From positions 1 to 33,829 of the forward strand of contig WQUW01000015.1 of NCBI GenBank assembly GCA_009781915.1: a stretch of DNA of 33,829 nucleotides. The letters are read 5' to 3'. The notes below the pieces were generated by a model. That model did no database searches. It had not been told where the DNA came from and saw only the letters and a program-made list of their open reading frames with translations. The stretch is from Treponema sp. (GTDB lineage: Bacteria > Spirochaetota > Spirochaetia > Treponematales > Breznakiellaceae). Positions 324 to 33,829 of this stretch are shown piece by piece. Made by a program: the position numbers and the translations under genes. Positions within the stretch are counted from its first letter, which is position 1. Each line of letters begins with the position of its first letter.

Positions 324-531
324 GCCCCCGCCGCGCGTGAGCATCAGTACAATGCCCGGCAGGGGAGGATAAATGTTTTAAGAAGCCATTTGCCCAAATT
401 CTTAGGCGAAGGAGACCGAGGCTCCGGAGCCGTGTTCCTTGGGCGGGATTCTTAAACCGTATATCCTCCCCTGCCGGGGCTTTATGCGGGAATGCTCATG
501 CGCGGCGGGGGGCTCACGCGCGGCGGGGGGG
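324..531 (-). repeat. Palindromic element, copy 1 (inverted relative to copies 2-4)
   Basis: The left end CCCCCGCCGCGCGTGAGC and right end GCTCATGCGCGGCGGGG are inverted repeats. Inside them lie a 29-nt inner arm at 356-384 and its near-complement at 449-477, with three mismatches. The terminal motif is duplicated on the right: a first copy at 494-510 and a second at 511-531. The central spacer, read as reverse complement, matches the spacers of copies 2-4 (GGAGCC, CGGTCTCC, GGGCAAATGGC), so this copy is in the opposite orientation. The flank CATTGC followed by a G run, present on the right of copies 2 and 4, appears here on the left as its complement, confirming orientation. Confidence 0.9.
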
Positions 532-24821: not shown

Positions 24822-27800
24822 TCAATCCAAAGAAGCCAAGTCAAGGGTTACTTCCACTTCCCCGCGGGATATTTTCAGGGCTTTGGCTATTTCGTCTTCC
24901 TTCCAGCCCTGCCGGGCAAGGGCAATGATGTTTTCCTTCCGTTCTTGGGGGGTGAGTTTTGAGCCATCGCCCAGATCGGAAAGGGATTTTGTCTTTTTGC
25001 CCTTTACCATAGAGTCAATGGCCCTTGCCTGAGTCTGGGCATCTTTGTTTAACTGTTCAAGCCGTGTTTCCATTCCCGCAATTGACTGCCGGGCCCTTTG
25101 CATGGAATCAATTTTCGCCTCAATCTCTTGTAAAAGACTGTCCAGCACGTCAATTTTGTCCGCCGCCTGCCGGGCCTTTTCGCTTTCTCCGGCAAGCTTT
25201 TCGATGGAACTCCGCAGGGATGATACGTCCTCGGCATAGCGGTCAAGATCGCCGCCAATTTTCGCCGAGATTTTTTCCGATTCCTGAAGCGCCTTGAAAT
25301 TCCTGTCTATGCCGTCATTGGTGTTGTCCAGTATCTGGTTCTTCCGTTCAATGCGCTGGAACTTGTCATCCGTGGCCCCCAACGCCTCTTCGAGCTTGCG
25401 GAACTGGAGCTGTATTCCCTGCAGGGTGTCGTCCGAAGCGATAACCTGCGTGAGTTTTTCCTCTACGGCATGGGATATTTTGAGCAGGCGGCCAAAGTCC
25501 GCCTCCATTGTTTCTATTTTGCGCTTTTCTGAAAGGAAGCGGGTCATTTTGGCGTTCACATCGTCCTGAAGCCGCTTGATTTTAACAAAGTCGTTTTCAA
25601 GCTGGAAGGCTTCCGCCCTGCGCTGATCCAGACGCTCAATGTCGCTTTTAAGCTGATCGATGCGCTGGCCCAAGTCAAGCCGCAGAGCGTCCACCTTGTC
25701 AACAAGCTTGGTCTGATCCACGGCCTCCTTGATGTGCCGCTGAGCGTCCTCCACAGAAGAGCGCACCACGGCGATGCGGCTGTCGTTTTCCGCCGAAAGG
25801 TCTTTGACACGGCGGCGGGCGTCCTCGATGCTGTCGTCCAGTTCCCGGATTTTCGCGGTAAGCCCTTCCCTCGCCCCGGCCAAATCCGCGCGGGAAGCGT
25901 CAACGAGCCCCGAAATCTCGGCGTTGCGGGTCTGGATGTACTCGGATACCTCGCGGAATTTCCCGTCCAGTTCCCGGTGGTACTGCTTTAGGCTTTCCGC
26001 CGCTTCAAGCGAGTGTTTGCCAATTTCGGCCTTGATATAAATCTCCGCCCCTTTTCTGGCTTCTTCAAGGTTTGCCGCAAGCTGCTCTTTAAGCGAAACC
26101 ACAGACTCGTCGGCGGCGCTCATTTCGCCCTGAATCCTGTCCCCAAAGGCGCTTGTTTCCGCTTTCAGGTGTTCGAGCGCCGACACAAGCCGCGCGTCAT
26201 GGGCCGAAAGCTGCTTCCGCATCTCTTCGGTAAGACTGCGCTCCAGTTCCCAGCGCCCGGCCTCGGCTTCTTCGCCCATTTTGGACAGCCGCCTTTCAAG
26301 GTCGTCCTGCCACTGCGCAAGGCGCTGGTCTATGTCGCCGGAACGCTTGGAAAGGTCGGTAAAGAAGCCCTCCTCGAACCCTTTGAGCTTCTGGGAAACA
26401 TTATCGTAGGCGGCGGTTTTAAGGCCGGAGAACTCGTTTTCAAGCTCCGCCAGCTCCTTTCTCAGGGCCGCCGCGACACCGGAGAACTTATCCAGTTCCG
26501 CTTTCCGCAGGCCCTCGGATTCCCGCTCGTACCGGGAGAGATCCTCCTGCACCCTGCCAACCACGTCCCGCATACTCAGGCGCAGTTCCTCGTCCAGTTT
26601 CTTTGAGTCATCGGCCAGCGTTTCAAGCCGCCGGAACTCGGCATCCTGAGCGTGGCGGTATTCTTCCAGCTTTGTTCCGGTAATTTCCAGCGCCTTCTCT
26701 TTTATCTCCTCGGCGGCCCTGACGATCATGGCCTCTTGGGAAGAAACTATCTGGCTCGTCCGCTCTGACAGTTCCCGCATCTGGGTTTCAAACTCCGCTT
26801 TGGCGGCGGCAAGGCGCTGTTCGGTGTCTTTAAGCGAGGCTTCCAGTTCCCGCGCATCGCTTTTGCGCTCGTCCCGAAGGGCCTTGTCCCGGATTTCCCA
26901 CTCGGCCCGCTCGGTTTGCCAGCCTTCCCGGTATTCCTCCAGCCGTGCCCCGGTAGTTTCCAGAGCCTTCTGCGTCATGTCCCCGGCAGTCTTAATGAAC
27001 TGGGCCTCCCGCGAGGAAACTACAGCATCCGTGCGGGCCGCAAGCTCCTGCATCTGGCGTTCCAGCTCGGTCTTGGCGGCGGCAAGGCGTTTTTCAGCGT
27101 CCTGAAGCGATGCCCCAAGCTCCCGCATATCGCTCTTGCGCTCGTCCCGAAGGGCCTTGTCCCGGCTTTCCCAGTCGGCCCGCTCGGCTTGCCAGCTTTC
27201 CCGGTATTTTTCCAGCTTGACCCCGGTGGCTTCCAGCGCCTTCCGCGCCATGTCCCCGGCGGCCTTGGCAAGGACAGCCTCCTGCGAAGAAAGTATCCTG
27301 TCCGTCTGGCCCGACAGTTCCCGCATTTGGCTTTCGAATTCGGCTTTGGCGGCGGTAAGGCGCTGTTCGGCCTCTTGAAGCGAGGTTTCCAGCTCCCGCA
27401 GGTCGTTTTTGCGCTCGTCCCGAAGCATTTTGTCCGTGTGTTCCCACTCGGCCCGCTCCGTCTGCCAGCCTTCCCGGTATTCCTCCAGCCGCGCCCCGGC
27501 GGTTTCCAGCGCCTTCTGCGTCATATCCCCGGCAGTCTTGAAGAACTCAGCCTCCCGCAAGGAAATTGCCGTGTCTGCGCGGGCAGACAGTTCTTGCATC
27601 TGGTGTTCCAGCCCGGCTTTGGCGGCGGCAAGGCGCTGTTCGGCCTCTTGAAGCGAGGTTTCCAGTTCCCGCAGGTCGTTCTTGCGCTCGTCCCGAAGCA
27701 TCTTGTCCGTGTGTTCCCACTCCGTCCGCTCCGCCTGCCAGCCCTCCCGGTATTCTTCCAGCCGCGCCTCGGTGGTTTCCAGCGCCTTCTGCGTCATATC

Positions 27801-29153
27801 CCCGGCAGTTTTGAAGAACTCAGACTCCCGTAAGGAAATTGCCGTGTCCGCGCGGGCAGACAGTTCTTGCATCTGGTGTTCCAGCCCGGCTTTGGCGGCG
27901 GCAAGGCGCTGTTCGGCCTCTTGAAGCGAGGTTTCCAGTTCCTGCAGGTCGTTCTTGCGCTCTTCCCGAAGGGCCTTGTCCGTGCGTTCCCACTCGGCCC
28001 GCTCCGCCTGCCAGCCGTGCTGGTATTCTTCCAGCCGCGCCCCGGTAGTTTCCAGCGCCTTCCGCGTCATGTCCCCGGCAGTCTTGAAAAACTCAGCCTC
28101 CCGCGAGGAAATTACGGCATCGGTGCGGGCAGACAGTTCCTGCATCTGGTGTTCCATGTCCGTTTTGGCGGCGGCAAGGCGCTGTTCGCTGGCTTCCAGC
28201 GAGGTTTCCAGCTCCAGTATGTCTTTTCTGCGCTCGTCCCGGAACGCCTTGTCCCCGCGTTCCCACTCGGCCCGCTCGGTCTGCCATTCTTCCTTGAAGT
28301 TCTTTATCAGCGTCTGCGCCTCGGCTACCCGTGCCTTGGCGTTTTCCTGATAGCCTTTAAGCCGCTCTTCCTCGGCGGTTTTAAGCCGCCTGAGCCTGTC
28401 TTCGGCCTGCTCTTTTAAGTTTTGCAAGGCGGCTTCTTCCATTTTATCCGCCCGTTTCCCGGCCTGCTCCACGGCGTTTTTCAGCGCTTCGTTGATGTGC
28501 GCCACGTCTCTGGCTAAATCCGTGGCCCGGTTCCGTTCGATCCTGTTAATTTCCTCCCGGTGGTCTTCCACTTTGCGCTCAATCGTTTCGGCGGTGGCGC
28601 TTAAATCGGACACGGCGGACGCTACTCCGGCAAGCACCGATTCGGCGGCCTTTTCCAGCGCCAGAGTATTTTCCCGCTCAAAGGTGCTTTCCAGTGACGC
28701 AAGGGCCTTGCCTATTTCGTCAAGGCGGGCCTTCGCCTCGCTTATGCGCTTGCCCGTAGATTCCACAAAGGCCGACTCGTCCCGGATGCGGTTCATGTTT
28801 TCCTGCACCCGGTTTGTCATGCGGTCAAGTTCGGCAAGGGAGTTTTCGTAACTCTTTATCTGATTGTCAATGTGGGTCATTGCGGCGGCTTTTCCGGCAA
28901 GCTCCTCCTCGGTTAGCTGAAGGCGCTTCATCAGTTCCTTGGCGGAGTCCCGCTCCACATTCAAGGAGACGCCGTAGTCCTTGATGGCGTTTTCCTGCTC
29001 CCCGACAAAGGAGGCAAGGTCTTTTTTGAGTATCTCCGAATAATCCCGGAGCTTTTTCATGTGCCGGTTATTCTTGTCCATCTGCCGGAACAGGACGAGA
29101 AACAATAGGGCGATGCCTAGCGTTAAAAGATTGCCTACGGTGAAAAATCCCAT
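24822..29153 (-). CDS. Giant membrane-anchored coiled-coil protein (SpiroCoCo-like)
   Basis: This 1443-residue protein has one N-terminal membrane segment (about residues 3-22), then nearly continuous heptad-rich coiled coil to about residue 1370, and a short C-terminal domain (TPQERKENIIALARQGW, then EIAKALKISRGEVEVTL) that looks like a helix-turn-helix. This architecture matches the SpiroCoCo coiled-coil family of treponemes, as far as I recall it. The centre holds six tandem 91-residue repeats (26643-28280). Topology suggests a rod projecting from the inner membrane, either cytoplasmic or periplasmic; the HTH-like end favours the cytoplasm. There is no clear ribosome binding site. The ATG lies 5 nt after the HAD stop, so translation is probably coupled. 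Confidence 0.9.
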   Translation of the reverse strand: MGFFTVGNLLTLGIALLFLVLFRQMDKNNRHMKKLRDYSEILKKDLASFVGEQENAIKDYGVSLNVERDSAKELMKRLQLTEEELAGKAAAMTHIDNQIKSYENSLAELDRMTNRVQENMNRIRDESAFVESTGKRISEAKARLDEIGKALASLESTFERENTLALEKAAESVLAGVASAVSDLSATAETIERKVEDHREEINRIERNRATDLARDVAHINEALKNAVEQAGKRADKMEEAALQNLKEQAEDRLRRLKTAEEERLKGYQENAKARVAEAQTLIKNFKEEWQTERAEWERGDKAFRDERRKDILELETSLEASEQRLAAAKTDMEHQMQELSARTDAVISSREAEFFKTAGDMTRKALETTGARLEEYQHGWQAERAEWERTDKALREERKNDLQELETSLQEAEQRLAAAKAGLEHQMQELSARADTAISLRESEFFKTAGDMTQKALETTEARLEEYREGWQAERTEWEHTDKMLRDERKNDLRELETSLQEAEQRLAAAKAGLEHQMQELSARADTAISLREAEFFKTAGDMTQKALETAGARLEEYREGWQTERAEWEHTDKMLRDERKNDLRELETSLQEAEQRLTAAKAEFESQMRELSGQTDRILSSQEAVLAKAAGDMARKALEATGVKLEKYRESWQAERADWESRDKALRDERKSDMRELGASLQDAEKRLAAAKTELERQMQELAARTDAVVSSREAQFIKTAGDMTQKALETTGARLEEYREGWQTERAEWEIRDKALRDERKSDARELEASLKDTEQRLAAAKAEFETQMRELSERTSQIVSSQEAMIVRAAEEIKEKALEITGTKLEEYRHAQDAEFRRLETLADDSKKLDEELRLSMRDVVGRVQEDLSRYERESEGLRKAELDKFSGVAAALRKELAELENEFSGLKTAAYDNVSQKLKGFEEGFFTDLSKRSGDIDQRLAQWQDDLERRLSKMGEEAEAGRWELERSLTEEMRKQLSAHDARLVSALEHLKAETSAFGDRIQGEMSAADESVVSLKEQLAANLEEARKGAEIYIKAEIGKHSLEAAESLKQYHRELDGKFREVSEYIQTRNAEISGLVDASRADLAGAREGLTAKIRELDDSIEDARRRVKDLSAENDSRIAVVRSSVEDAQRHIKEAVDQTKLVDKVDALRLDLGQRIDQLKSDIERLDQRRAEAFQLENDFVKIKRLQDDVNAKMTRFLSEKRKIETMEADFGRLLKISHAVEEKLTQVIASDDTLQGIQLQFRKLEEALGATDDKFQRIERKNQILDNTNDGIDRNFKALQESEKISAKIGGDLDRYAEDVSSLRSSIEKLAGESEKARQAADKIDVLDSLLQEIEAKIDSMQRARQSIAGMETRLEQLNKDAQTQARAIDSMVKGKKTKSLSDLGDGSKLTPQERKENIIALARQGWKEDEIAKALKISRGEVEVTLDLASLD
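26643..28280 (-). repeat. Six tandem 273-bp repeats inside the coiled-coil gene
   Basis: Six consecutive units of exactly 273 bp (91 residues, or 13 heptads) fill this interval. Each begins ERAEWE or a close variant, continues with RDERK, LETSLQEAEQRLAAAK, and ends ALETTGARLEEYREGWQ. Counting in the translation direction, units 2 and 3 are almost identical, while units 1, 4, 5 and 6 are more diverged. The unit length keeps the heptad register when units are gained or lost. Confidence 0.92.
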
Positions 29154-29866: not shown

Positions 29867-29912
29867 GTGCTTACTTTATACTATATTGGCGGCGGTTTTG
29901 GAAGATGTCCCG

Positions 29913-30097
29913 CCCCCGCCGCGCGTGAGCCACCAGTACAATGCCCGGCAGGGGAGGATATACGGTTTAAGAATCCCGCACGGGGAACCCGCTCCGGAGC
30001 CACGGTCTCCTTTGCGGAGAGCCCATGCAAAATGGCTTCTTAAACCGTATATCCTCCCCTGCCGGGCATTGTACTGGTGGCTCACGCGCGGCGGGGG
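29913..30097 (+). repeat. Palindromic element, copy 2 (perfect 61-bp inverted repeat)
   Basis: Positions 29913-29973 are exactly complementary to 30037-30097, giving a 61-bp perfect stem around a 63-nt spacer (29974-30036). The arm runs from a GC-rich end (CCCCCGCCGCGCGTGAGCC) through ACAATGCCCGGCAGGGGAGG to TATACGGTTTAAGAA. The spacer contains the 10-bp palindrome GCTCCGGAGC at 29991-30000. Immediately right, CATTGCTGGGGG recurs beside the other copies. It lies between the HAD promoter region and a truncated Rpn-type gene. Confidence 0.95.
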
Positions 30098-30605
30098 CAT
30101 TGCTGGGGGAAGACTCAACCCCCGCAAGCTTATCAACCATCTGACCGGAGAGCGGAAATTCACGGTTGAAAAAAAGGAGTCCGGAATATATATTGTAAAG
30201 GGTGATATATTGCCCATCCAGATAATTGACAGCCGCAAGCTTTCCGAAGATGAAAACGTCTGGCTGAAAGGCCTGGACAACCAGCTTGACGCACAGTGGG
30301 TACGGCGGATTGCGGACAAGATAGCGGCTTTGGGCAAGGATGTCCAGATGTGGGCGTATCTTGACGCGATAGCAAGGGCAAACGAAGAAGCATTACAGGA
30401 GGCATACGAGATGAGCGATACGGCGATAGCGTCATTGAAACGAACATTTGAAAGAATCGGTTTTTCGGCGGAATGGGAAAATAGAGGCCGCAACGAAGGC
30501 CGTGAAGAGACAGCCCGCAACGCCCTCGCAAAAGGCTTGGCCCCGGAACTGATCCACGACATCACCGGCCTTGACATGGAAACCATACAAAGGCTCGCCC
30601 AGTAA
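30098..30605 (+). pseudogene. 5'-truncated Rpn-family (PD-(D/E)XK) nuclease gene
   Basis: The open frame reads in from element copy 2, and only the sequence from about 30122 (RKLINHL...) looks like protein. It matches the second half of Rpn-family proteins as I recall them: a GIYIVKGDILPIQII strand pair, a LSEDENVWLKGLDN helix, a helix with ARANEEALQEAYEM, and the charged C-terminal tail ending TGLDMETIQRLAQ, which the intact neighbour also has. The N-terminal nuclease core with its D...ExQ residues is missing. No ATG lies between the element and the conserved part, and no good start is visible. The break coincides with the element boundary, so insertion or recombination there probably removed the 5' part. 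Confidence 0.7.
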
Positions 30606-30610
30606 CCCGC

Positions 30611-30801
30611 CCCCCGCCGCGCATGAGCCATGCATTCCCGCCAAAAGCTCCGGCAGGGGAGGATATACGGTTTAAGAATCCCGCACGGGGAACCCGCTAC
30701 GGAGCCACGGTCTCCTACGCGGAGAGTCCATGCAAAATGGCTTCTTAAACCGTATATCCTCCCCTGCCGGGCATTAGGCCTGAGGCTCACACGCGGCGGG
30801 G
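30611..30801 (+). repeat. Palindromic element, copy 3
   Basis: The element begins 5 nt after the stop of the truncated Rpn gene. The inner arms 30650-30678 and 30742-30770 are a perfect 29-bp inverted repeat, while the outer arms have diverged (GCATGAGCC on the left, GGCTCACACGCGGCGGGG on the right). The spacer differs from copy 2 at only a few positions. The right flank has CATTATTGGGGGG, then a block resembling the one right of copy 4 (AACAT...CGGCATT). Confidence 0.92.
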
Positions 30802-30847
30802 CATTATTGGGGGGCTCCGCAGAACATCATCTACGGCATTCTCGCCC

Positions 30848-30876
30848 TTTTAAATTCCCCTTTCTTGCGCTATAAT
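30848..30876 (+). promoter_or_regulatory. Putative promoter of the intact Rpn gene
   Basis: A consensus TATAAT at 30871-30876 is preceded 17 nt upstream by a weak TTTTAA at 30848-30853. Transcription would start near 30883 and give a leader of about 15 nt before ATG 30898. Confidence 0.5.
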
Positions 30877-30897
30877 ACAAAACATGAGGGCGGCGTT

Positions 30898-31722
30898 ATG
30901 ACTAGGCTTGAGTACACGTTCAAAACCGACACGCTGTTCAAAATGCTGTTCGTCCAAAACCCGGACTTGCTCAAACGGTTGGTCTGCGAGCTGTTGCGGA
31001 TCAAGTTCGAAAGCATAGGCCAGTTCGAGATCAAAAACCCCGAAATGCCGCCGGAAAGCCTTGACGGCAAGTTCTGCCGCCTAGATATCAACATGACCGT
31101 TGACGGCCAGCTCGTAGACCTTGAAATCCAAGTCAGGGACGAAAAGGACTACCCGGAGCGGGCGCTGTACTACTGGGCACGGGAGTACTCAACGGCATTG
31201 CCCGAAAGCGGCGATTACAAGGATTTGCCCCGCACGGTCATAATCAGCATCATAAGCTTTAACCAGTTCGACAGCCCTGAATTCCATTCCGAGTTTTGCC
31301 CCCTAGAGGTAAATCGCCACGAGCTCCTCTCCGACAGGATGAGCCTTCATTTTTTTGAACTGAAGAAAATCCCCGCTCAGCCGCTAACCGCTAACGACAA
31401 GCTCCTATTGTGGCTGGCGTTGTTCAAGGCCGAAACGCAAGAGGAGCTGGAAAAGATAAAAGCATTGGAGGAACCAGTCATGGAACAAGCGATTAACGCC
31501 TACCAGAAGATCACGGCGACCCCCGAATTCCGCGAGATGGAGCGGATGCGCTCCTACGCCCGCCACAACGAGGCCGCCGCCCTCCGCCACGCCCGTGACG
31601 AGGGAAGGGAGGAGGGCATGGAGAAGGTAGCCAAAAATGCCTTGAAGGAAGGGGCTTCCGTCGAATTCGTGCAAAAAATAACCGGACTTGATATGGAAAC
31701 CATACAAAGGCTCGCCCAGTAA
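30898..31722 (+). CDS. Rpn-family PD-(D/E)XK nuclease / transposase-like protein
   Basis: This 274-residue protein belongs to the PD-(D/E)XK group annotated as recombination-promoting nuclease or putative transposase. It opens with TDTLFKMLFVQNPDLLKRLV, carries the active-site pattern with D63 (RLDINM) and E76-x-Q78 (LEIQV), then ERALYYWAREY, RTVIISIISFNQF and a helical second half. The C-terminal tail (EEGMEKVAKNALKEG... TGLDMETIQRLAQ) is shared with the truncated neighbour. ATG 30898 is preferred over the upstream ATG 30865, which lies before the -10 box; GAGGGCGG is 5 nt upstream. Relatives cut DNA and stimulate RecA-independent recombination. It sits between element copies 3 and 4. Confidence 0.9.
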   Translation: MTRLEYTFKTDTLFKMLFVQNPDLLKRLVCELLRIKFESIGQFEIKNPEMPPESLDGKFCRLDINMTVDGQLVDLEIQVRDEKDYPERALYYWAREYSTALPESGDYKDLPRTVIISIISFNQFDSPEFHSEFCPLEVNRHELLSDRMSLHFFELKKIPAQPLTANDKLLLWLALFKAETQEELEKIKALEEPVMEQAINAYQKITATPEFREMERMRSYARHNEAAALRHARDEGREEGMEKVAKNALKEGASVEFVQKITGLDMETIQRLAQ

Positions 31723-31726
31723 CCCG

Positions 31727-31912
31727 CCCCCCGCCGCGCGTGAGCATTTACGCCAAAAGCTCCGGCAGGGGAGGATATACGGTTTAAGAAGCCGCCCAGG
31801 GAACCCGCTGCGGAGCCACGGTCTCCTACGCTAAAGAGCCTGGGCAAATGGCTTCTTAAACCGTATATCCTCCCCTGCCGGACATTGTCCTAGAGGTTCA
31901 CGCGCGACGGGG
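31727..31912 (+). repeat. Palindromic element, copy 4
   Basis: The element begins 4 nt after the stop of the intact Rpn gene. Inner arms 31762-31790 and 31853-31881 are a perfect 29-bp inverted repeat. The outer arms are imperfect (GCGTGAGCATTTACGCC on the left, GAGGTTCACGCGCGACGGGG on the right). The spacer shares CGGAGCCACGGTCTCC with copies 2 and 3 but has GGGCAAATGGC like copy 1. CATTGCTGGGG follows on the right. Confidence 0.92.
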
Positions 31913-31957
31913 CATTGCTGGGGTGAAGAACATTTGCTTGCGGCATTTAACCCCGCC

Positions 31958-32024
31958 AGCCTTCCCAGTGGAACCGGGAAGGCTGCGCGAAGCGGGCAAG
32001 GCCGCTTTGATTGCGTCCTTGCCC
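31958..32024. repeat. Outer hairpins right of element copy 4
   Basis: AGCCTTCCC (31958-31966) pairs with GGGAAGGCT (31976-31984) across a 9-nt loop; it and the following GCGAAGCG match the reverse complement of 271-312. A second inverted repeat, GGGCAAGG (31994-32001) with CCTTGCCC (32017-32024), lies against the end of the secreted-protein gene and could stop its transcription, although no T-run is seen. The rest of 31913-31957 is gene-free and resembles the flank of copy 3. Confidence 0.65.
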
Positions 32025-32031
32025 TGCGCTG

Positions 32032-33829
32032 TTAAAAGCCGCTGCCAGTAACCGTTACGCCGGGAACCGGGGAGAATACTCCGCCGGGAAAGCTTATGGC
32101 GCTCTGCCCGCCGCTTGCTCCCCATCTTATCACCCCCGGCGGATTAGACGATAAATTGGTCACCGAACCCGCGGCATATGTTCCCGTAGAATACCGCGCG
32201 ATCGTGCCGGTAAGGGCGTTCGGCTCTCTGTTGACAACGCCGTTCGGGCCTATTAACGGCAAGTTTCTTTGAGAAACCACCAAGCCGCCGGTAATCCTGA
32301 ACGTGCCATTAACGTGGGCGTTGATCGCCTGTCCTGTTGTAGCGCTTACAACACCGCTGCCGGAAACGGTAACGGCGGTGGCGGAAGTACTGGTAGAATG
32401 AATCGCTGTGCCGGTAGTCGCCCTTACCTGTCCTCCCGAAACGGTAACGGAGCCGCCTGTAGAGAGAATTGTCTGAGCGTTGCCTTCCGCGCTTACAACC
32501 CCGCCGGAAACAATAATTGTACTGTTTTCCCATGAGATATCAGCGTGAATTGCCCTATGCCCGCCGATAGAATTTATACTTCCAGCGGTAACGTTAAGCG
32601 TACCGTTACCCCGAACAGTTACAGCATTGGCAACATTCCAATGATCTAGAGTAGCGTTATAATTCGCGTTCCAGTTAACCGTAGAGTTTGCGCCGATATC
32701 CAGAAAAATCTGTCTGTTCCCGTTATTCACCGCCCCGGTGCCTTGGCTGGTTATCGTTGTAGTTACACTTGCCGGCACTGCTAGTGTTCCGGACGCGCCT
32801 TCCGCTATAGTAATGGTGCTGTTTGTGGCGATTGACGCATCCCAAGGCACCCTGTCGCTGTTCCAAACTATTCTGTTGCCTACGCTAACACCTGAACGCG
32901 GGACAAAGATATTGTTCCGGTATCTTATGCCGGTTTCCCATCCGTTATTCAAGAACCAATGAACATTCGCCGAAGCAGGCAAAAATGATGCTGCCGGGAA
33001 AGCCGCTCCTGACGCATGAGAGCCGCCAAGGGCGTAGCCGATAATAGTGCCATTGGTAATAGTATTCGGAACTCTGTTGACAACGCCAACGCCGTAAAAA
33101 CCGGTTGCGTTAGGCGATTCCGCAATCACCAAGCCGCCGGTAATATTCAAGGCACCGGCAACGCTAATTGCCTGTCCCCCACTCCGATGACCGTATGCTC
33201 TTACAACCCCACCAGAAACGGTAACAGTACCGGAGGCATTTGTTGAAGCAATCGTTGCAGTAAACCACCCTTGCGGCCACGAACCGACAGATCCGCCTGA
33301 AACAAGGATTGTGCTATTAGAGGATGTATAGATTGCTCTGCTACTTAAAGATGGAACAGTTGGAAAACAATAGATATTACCATCGGCAACTTCAAGCGTG
33401 CCTGAACCCACAACAGTTACAGGAACAAAAGCACCACTAGTACCCATACTTCTAGTACTTCGATACCTCGCCCTCCAAACAACCCGCGCTCCTTCGCTGA
33501 TATTAAGCGTTATTGCCCTGTCTCCATTATCGACCCAGCCGGTACCTGCGCTGTTTATCGTTACCGTTGCGTTTTCGGGCACGATAAGCGTTCCGGCAGC
33601 GCCCGTGGCAATGGTAACCATTGCGCCGTTGGTAACTGCCGGCGGCGTGGCGCTGTTCCACGGGACGGTAACGGGCCCATTAAGCGTTACTGGCTGTGGC
33701 CCACTTGCAATCCCGGCCCGGTTGATAGAAATGTTTACCACTCCGGCAACCACATTGGTAAGCGTCAACGTTCGGGTATTCCCGGTGGTAGTTAACGTTC
33801 CCCTTGTCGCAGAGCCATTTACGGGAGTA
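32032..33829 (-). CDS. C-terminal part of a repetitive, probably secreted beta-structured protein (runs off right edge)
   Basis: The frame is open from the right edge, with no stop before TAA at 32034-32032, giving about 598 residues of a larger protein; the start is outside the window. Composition is rich in Gly, Ser, Thr, Val and Asn with almost no Cys or Lys, typical of surface beta-solenoids. Short strand motifs recur: ITGGLVI, VTVSGG, GSGTLEV, STIIVSGG. A module of about 265 residues occurs twice: TGAAGTLIVPENATVTI / EGASGTLAVPASVTTTI begin it, and VVNRVPNTITNGTI / VVNREPNALTGTI lie late in it. Pectate-lyase-like or adhesin repeats are possible. No autotransporter barrel or sorting signal is visible at the C-terminus (GVTVTGSGF). 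Confidence 0.75.
   Translation of the reverse strand, partial: TPVNGSATRGTLTTTGNTRTLTLTNVVAGVVNISINRAGIASGPQPVTLNGPVTVPWNSATPPAVTNGAMVTIATGAAGTLIVPENATVTINSAGTGWVDNGDRAITLNISEGARVVWRARYRSTRSMGTSGAFVPVTVVGSGTLEVADGNIYCFPTVPSLSSRAIYTSSNSTILVSGGSVGSWPQGWFTATIASTNASGTVTVSGGVVRAYGHRSGGQAISVAGALNITGGLVIAESPNATGFYGVGVVNRVPNTITNGTIIGYALGGSHASGAAFPAASFLPASANVHWFLNNGWETGIRYRNNIFVPRSGVSVGNRIVWNSDRVPWDASIATNSTITIAEGASGTLAVPASVTTTITSQGTGAVNNGNRQIFLDIGANSTVNWNANYNATLDHWNVANAVTVRGNGTLNVTAGSINSIGGHRAIHADISWENSTIIVSGGVVSAEGNAQTILSTGGSVTVSGGQVRATTGTAIHSTSTSATAVTVSGSGVVSATTGQAINAHVNGTFRITGGLVVSQRNLPLIGPNGVVNREPNALTGTIARYSTGTYAAGSVTNLSSNPPGVIRWGASGGQSAISFPGGVFSPVPGVTVTGSGF

Follow-up and report, generated by a model that had tools for sequence, protein, structure and literature searches.

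In E. coli, 260 of 496 REP sequences lie at most 15 nt from a stop codon, a figure cited in PMC12306157, and the REPs on the two sides of a RAYT gene are inverted (PMC2817692). The rpn genes of E. coli are toxin-antitoxin (TA) genes-within-genes, in which a C-terminal protein is produced from an internal start (PMC10327210). E. coli RpnA is described as an endonuclease that promotes RecA-independent recombination; its activity showed little or no sequence specificity and did not depend on DNA conformation (PMC5350276). According to Zhong et al., rpn genes in general have no defined ends, and neither target duplications nor inverted repeats beside them can be identified (PMC10327210); an arrangement in which rpn genes are bracketed by hairpins would therefore be new; no earlier description of it was found in the literature searched, which covered few subscription journals. 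Here we describe such an arrangement in a termite-gut spirochaete, Treponema sp. (GCA_009781915.1), beginning from the window, by which we mean the whole stretch of 33,829 nt of contig WQUW01000015.1 that was analysed. We lean towards a reading in which TA and Rpn cassettes are shuffled by recombination between REP-like hairpins, rather than one in which the locus is an analogue of REP/RAYT.

The hairpin is a high-copy element of this genome (2.82 Mb, 180 contigs, 97% complete), where 174 forward and 169 reverse core arms were found, corresponding to ~170 elements; the reversed-pattern control gave 0 matches. Each copy is ~192 nt long plus a variable right tail, has terminal inverted repeats and is predicted to form one very long hairpin (z-scores of -10.2 as RNA and -9.2 as DNA). 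No Rfam family matched the element. It was absent from 59 relatives, three of them of the same genus, save for one chance-like match with 3 mismatches, and is confined to one genome among 60. It can be described as a genome-specific, REP/MITE-like long hairpin. No transposase inside an element was noticed in passing across the 1.03 Mb sampled, and as to target-site duplications, 6-9 nt repeats across the element were no commoner than in shuffled pairs, with the right edge uncertain. The right end runs into several alternative short modules, some of which are themselves terminator-like palindromes. For example, at right edges such as L186 1953, L188 5531 and window position 326, one alternative module is the terminator-like hairpin CCTTCCCGGCGGAGCCGGGAAGG, which gives a BIME-like mosaic, and another module that recurs downstream of elements contains a promoter-like TTGACG...TATACT. 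Left-half elements (model positions 2-106) were seen at L251 2958-3057 and L256 12841-12944, where each forms a direct tandem with a complete copy; they are possibly footprints of unequal recombination.

The window holds four copies of the element, one of them away from any Rpn gene (Table 1). The sequence-only reading of the window had pointed to two Rpn-type genes whose ends are identical over 47 nt, through the stop codon and into the element, and whose frames end 4-5 nt ahead of it. Both observations were borne out. The 47 nt (ATGGAAACCATACAAAGGCTCGCCCAGTAA followed by CCCGCCCCCCGCCGCGC) match exactly, with different bases on either side and with 87% similarity over the surrounding 83 nt, and such an exact match within 34 kb is far beyond what chance could plausibly give. 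The stop codons end at 30605 and 31722, and the elements start at 30610/30611 and 31727/31728. Two corrections are due. The second gene is a PDDEXK_2 gene (family 1), but the first does not encode a complete nuclease, being a 5'-truncated remnant of another Rpn-like family (family 2); and the element, with its ~170 copies in the genome, is not peculiar to these genes. Elsewhere in the window, a minus-strand frame at 24822-29153 (1443 aa, with a DUF6115-like C-terminus) contains a ~273-nt unit six times in tandem (26656-28320, 71-79% alike). Another minus-strand frame, at 32032-33828, runs out of the window after at least 598 aa, carries many short internal repeats and has no Pfam match; its product looks like a repetitive surface protein.

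Table 1. Features of the hairpin-bracketed rpn locus and of the further element copy in the window
Feature	Positions	Strand	Basis or remark
Long-hairpin element, copy 1	29912-30098	+	65-nt arms, 98% complementary; right edge abuts the truncated Rpn-like frame
5'-truncated Rpn-like gene, family 2	30099-30605	+	C-terminal 168 codons, without the nuclease core
Putative internally started C-terminal protein, RpnS-like, 64 aa	30411-30605	+	SD-like AGGAGG at 30397, ATG at 30411; analogy with PMC10327210
47-nt junction, first copy (tail codons, stop, element start)	30576-30622	+	Sequence identity
Long-hairpin element, copy 2	30610-30801	+	3' of the family-2 stop, 5' of the family-1 gene
Promoter-like site, TTTAAA-16-TATAAT	30849-30876	+	Between element 2 and rpn; consensus match only
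rpn, family 1, PDDEXK_2 / TIGR01784 nuclease gene, 274 aa	30898-31722	+	Domain match
Putative internally started RpnS-like protein, 80 aa	31480-31722	+	SD-like GGAGGA at 31467
47-nt junction, second copy	31693-31739	+	Sequence identity
Long-hairpin element, copy 3	31727-31912	+	Behind the family-1 stop; RNA z-score -10.2 for 31723-31960
Element, copy 4, no rpn neighbour	326-511	-	Sequence match

Full-length paralogues of the truncated frame are found on contigs C3, C70, C120 and C1. The frame opens at the right edge of the first element and aligns only with their C-terminal half; what is missing is the N-terminal half, which in these paralogues carries the R-ID-V...ILEYK-S motif. Family 2 has a weak similarity to TIGR01784 (E 7e-5, under the cut-off) with a visible ID...EYK motif, and in family 1 the PD-(D/E)XK Rpn nuclease domain is clear (PDDEXK_2 / TIGR01784). 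The nearest named relatives of the Rpn protein are from termite-gut Treponema MAGs. A sequence search of the PDB gave no significant match for family 1, and the AlphaFold model of family 2 (pLDDT 41, pTM 0.31) was too low in confidence for use.

The two window genes have only a ~40-residue tail and the element in common. A single recent tandem duplication, which had been named as the alternative source of the 47-nt identity, was rejected because the two frames belong to different Rpn-like families; the same junction is also present on other contigs. Families 1 and 2 swap their C-terminal tails along with the element junction, and it is this exchange that accounts for the 47-nt identity. On contig C144, for example, a family-1 body is joined to a family-2 tail (0.83 to C15a, 0.56 to C15b), and the similarity of this gene to the window changes family within the gene and runs on through the element. 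An internal SD-like GGAGG with an ATG is kept, as a sequence signature, in 4/4 family-1 and 6/6 family-2 copies that cover the region. By analogy with the E. coli genes, the tail proteins may be antitoxins, and since the truncated window gene retains the part behind the internal start, it could be an orphan antitoxin.

Linkage statistics were taken from 1.03 Mb of the genome in stretches, with genes called by a simple codon-based script. An element stands behind the stop codon of 7 of 12 Rpn genes, against 30 of 836 other called genes (Fisher, 1e-7), and an element of the same orientation lies within 300 nt upstream of 7 of 12 Rpn genes, against 4 of 836 others (4e-12), P values that overstate the Rpn enrichment because paralogues were counted as independent. 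A comparison of element placement at Rpn stops and at other stops had been proposed as a check, and in this genome the Rpn stops are the more often followed by an element. Where non-Rpn genes have an upstream element, its orientation is nearly always opposite. The order element, rpn, element, in one direction throughout, is found on contigs C15 (that of the window), C3, C70, C137, C140 and C144, and wherever an Rpn locus has an element on either side, the two share one orientation, direct and not inverted. The window cassette includes the promoter-like site, between the upstream element and rpn. At the Rpn cassette sites the homology blocks stop at the outer element edges and the flanks are unrelated. 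The Rpn genes on C1 and C43 have no adjacent full element, and that on C120 has no downstream one. The claim that gene and element form one module survives as regards linkage in this genome, which is far above that of other genes, on both sides and in one orientation; the part that assigned recognition to the nuclease finds no support.

Other short same-orientation element pairs enclose a PIN-domain gene, a MazE/PIN pair and a nuclease-like gene. Single genes were also seen between inverted pairs (L196 4611-6345, L183 10479-12186, L266 10305-12152 and L198 1-1925), and several of these genes encode short lipoproteins of one family, with a MKNTFKFLGI...ACD start.

Adjacency to stop codons is a wider property of the element. 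Among the 81 elements whose left end is intact, 25 start 0-10 nt past a same-strand stop, where 2.5% would be expected from random intergenic positions; the absolute rates may be inflated because the sample was partly picked for element- and Rpn-bearing contigs. Most of the stop-adjacent elements adjoin ordinary genes unrelated to Rpn, and the key feature of the sequence-only reading is therefore general and not specific to Rpn. At 8 further elements a gene reads in and terminates at the element's own TGA (...PRRA-stop or similar; L196 4611, L174 5925, L162 1818, L197 285, L266 10305, L201 2102, L254 456 and L256 11911), so that the element supplies both the stop codon and a C-terminus of like added residues. 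In their behaviour these spirochaete palindromes beside stop codons match the REPs of E. coli, and no RAYT was detected with them.

Outside this genome the linkage is missing in most relatives. No long hairpin stands within about 1.5 kb of any of 26 Rpn loci from relatives, and the expectation that the element would accompany Rpn genes in related genomes thus failed, with an exception in G022, a genome of the same family and a different genus. This genome has a ~200-nt palindrome in about 21 copies, unrelated in sequence to the window element, which sits upstream of roughly 8-9 PDDEXK_2 genes and encloses 3 copies of a classical Rpn (PF04754-like) and a BrnT toxin gene; other G022 Rpn copies are without the palindrome. 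Hairpins in control stretches of G009 and G022 looked like in-gene or contig-end artefacts. Among 75 named Rpn loci, 3 have a hairpin at most 25 nt past the stop, all of them in one termite-gut Oscillospiraceae MAG, Th196P3bin43, where hairpin repeats lie 3, 8 and 21 nt after Rpn stops (L149 3311-3457, L150 1092-1167 and L161 527-623). G037 and G040, single-contig genomes of the same order, have 37 and 46 PDDEXK_2 matches, respectively. Many of the G037 paralogues inspected have DNA in common that runs from ~95 nt ahead of the start codon to a point 110-190 nt short of the stop, so that they share promoter and body and not the tail.

The alternative that survives best is coincidence combined with paralogy, in which a REP-like repeat inserts, or is tolerated, behind stop codons, and a few ancestral Rpn genes that had acquired it were duplicated together with it, with no functional link. 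The general stop adjacency in this genome, the similar placement of E. coli REPs in the count cited above, the absence of hairpins at most Rpn relatives and the proneness of rpn genes to tandem duplication and transfer (PMC10327210) are all as this account would have it. Taken alone, however, it does not predict the same-orientation upstream element of 7/12 Rpn genes against 4/836 others, and it leaves unpredicted both the choice of toxin-like cargo within direct-repeat pairs and the parallel case in G022. We consider it possible, if rather unlikely.

Shuffling by recombination between hairpins, the reading towards which we lean, would proceed as follows. A REP-like hairpin that is abundant and near-identical would provide homology on either side of small TA or Rpn genes. 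Rpn TA genes-within-genes, each with its own promoter, may have become enclosed by elements in direct orientation and thus have formed small cassettes, which ectopic recombination between elements would duplicate and relocate; recombination in the conserved tail would exchange the C-terminal (RpnS-like) tails. A gene-plus-element unit would join a resident element, and the outermost elements at Rpn loci lie at sites of the lone-element type, as expected from such a joining. The 47-nt identity would then be the footprint of a common tail-plus-element junction. Recombination of the elements would be what moves the cassettes, and recognition of the palindrome by Rpn would not be required. The repeat probably helps the bracketed genes to recombine and to move.

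Against this reading, the direct test for recombination within elements gave a weak result. Compared with random elements, the Rpn-linked ones show no excess similarity (all P>0.1), with one exception; a marginal hybrid-element trace was found only in family-1 downstream copies, at the end nearest the gene (P=0.033, uncorrected). Neither the element tree nor the comparison of similarity with random elements gave clear support to the idea that each Rpn is inherited strictly together with its own element. That the pair spreads together, as the sequence-only reading had also suggested, is plausible and unproven, with the Rpn-linked elements scattered in the element tree and their similarity as a group no higher than that of random elements. 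Neither an empty site nor a circular intermediate was seen; the same-genus genomes differ in gene order and neighbours at the locus.

A direct action of the nuclease on the palindrome, one of the two possibilities raised in the sequence-only reading, can be framed as a REP/RAYT-like or homing-like process; Rpn would cut the hairpin or cruciform, and repair would copy element-rpn-element into other elements. The tight Rpn-element linkage, the two Rpn families bordered by the G022 palindrome, the recombination-promoting endonuclease activity of RpnA (PMC5350276) and the location of Rpn-side copies at ordinary element sites would be consistent with this. However, in that source RpnA has little or no sequence specificity and is indifferent to conformation, and the hairpin is beside 0/26 Rpn genes of relatives. 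Furthermore, Rpn families are common to both genomes, yet their palindromes are unrelated; PIN and MazE/PIN genes are bracketed as well, and ~170 copies of the element stand against only about a dozen Rpn loci. The comparison with RAYT is weakened further by the stop adjacency of unrelated genes, by the direct orientation of the flanks and by the search for a Y1 transposase (HUH, PF01797), which gave no match in this 97% complete, 180-contig assembly and matched control genomes as expected. One palindrome is common to several Rpn families and to other toxin genes, and we see no sign in this analysis that the nuclease recognises the hairpin. With RpnA nearly unspecific, the linkage missing in most relatives, the palindromes differing by genome and other toxins bracketed, it is unlikely that Rpn acts directly on the palindrome, and the homing-like cycle as a whole is very unlikely.

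We give the least credence to integron-like, site-specific cassettes, in which the element would be an attC-like site for a tyrosine recombinase, since the elements right behind stops, their direct orientation, the TA-type genes between them and the presence of tyrosine recombinases, one of them integron-integrase-like, are offset by an attC core pair (RYYYAAC...GTTRRRY) in 0/63 elements, by scores of 157 and 186 bits against the TIGR02249 cut-off of 265 (one own-genome and one G022 protein), by the apparent frameshift of the own-genome copy and by the dispersal of the cassettes rather than a single array. The recombinases scored were L320 (G000, the present genome, C72:232-717, apparently frameshifted) and L325 (G022, C4:4023-4499).

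Recombination between hairpins can be extended to a wider and doubtful proposal, which we put forward tentatively. Termite-gut Treponematales may have a dispersed cassette system, in which genome-specific long palindromes, unrelated in sequence between genera, bracket Rpn and TA genes as direct repeats and serve as sites for gene movement and antitoxin-tail exchange, in function a scattered counterpart of the integron without attC. At the present loci the ends of rpn are defined by long hairpins, and tail swaps can be read together with the element junction. This bears on how Rpn genes spread and on why their C-terminal tails vary so strongly, and provides a concrete, testable route for the shuffling of phage-defence genes.

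Among known systems, the element resembles the enterobacterial REP/BIME sequences as a high-copy extragenic palindrome with mosaic neighbours and a preference for sites a few nt past stops, and with >100 extragenic palindromic copies, many behind stops, it falls within REP in the broad sense. Unlike REPs, it is 192 nt long rather than 20-40 nt, shows no GTAG-type head, resides in a genome where no Y1 (RAYT) transposase was detected and occurs in one genome among 60. In REP/RAYT modules (REPtrons), too, a gene of nuclease type lies between copies of a palindrome that is dispersed in the genome. However, the enzyme here is a PD-(D/E)XK Rpn and not an HUH Y1, the flanks are direct rather than inverted, several gene families share the palindrome, and the linkage is missing in most relatives. 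Integron cassettes have in common with the present ones a palindrome behind the stop, direct repeats and TA-type cargo, but here there are no attC core sites, dispersal is genome-wide, the cargo has its own promoter-like site, and there is no confirmed integrase. The closest likeness in the genes themselves is to the Rpn (COG5464 / TIGR01784 / PDDEXK_2) genes-within-genes, with the PDDEXK_2 nuclease, the variable C-terminal tail and the conserved internal SD-ATG; unlike those, the genes described here are bracketed by long hairpins.
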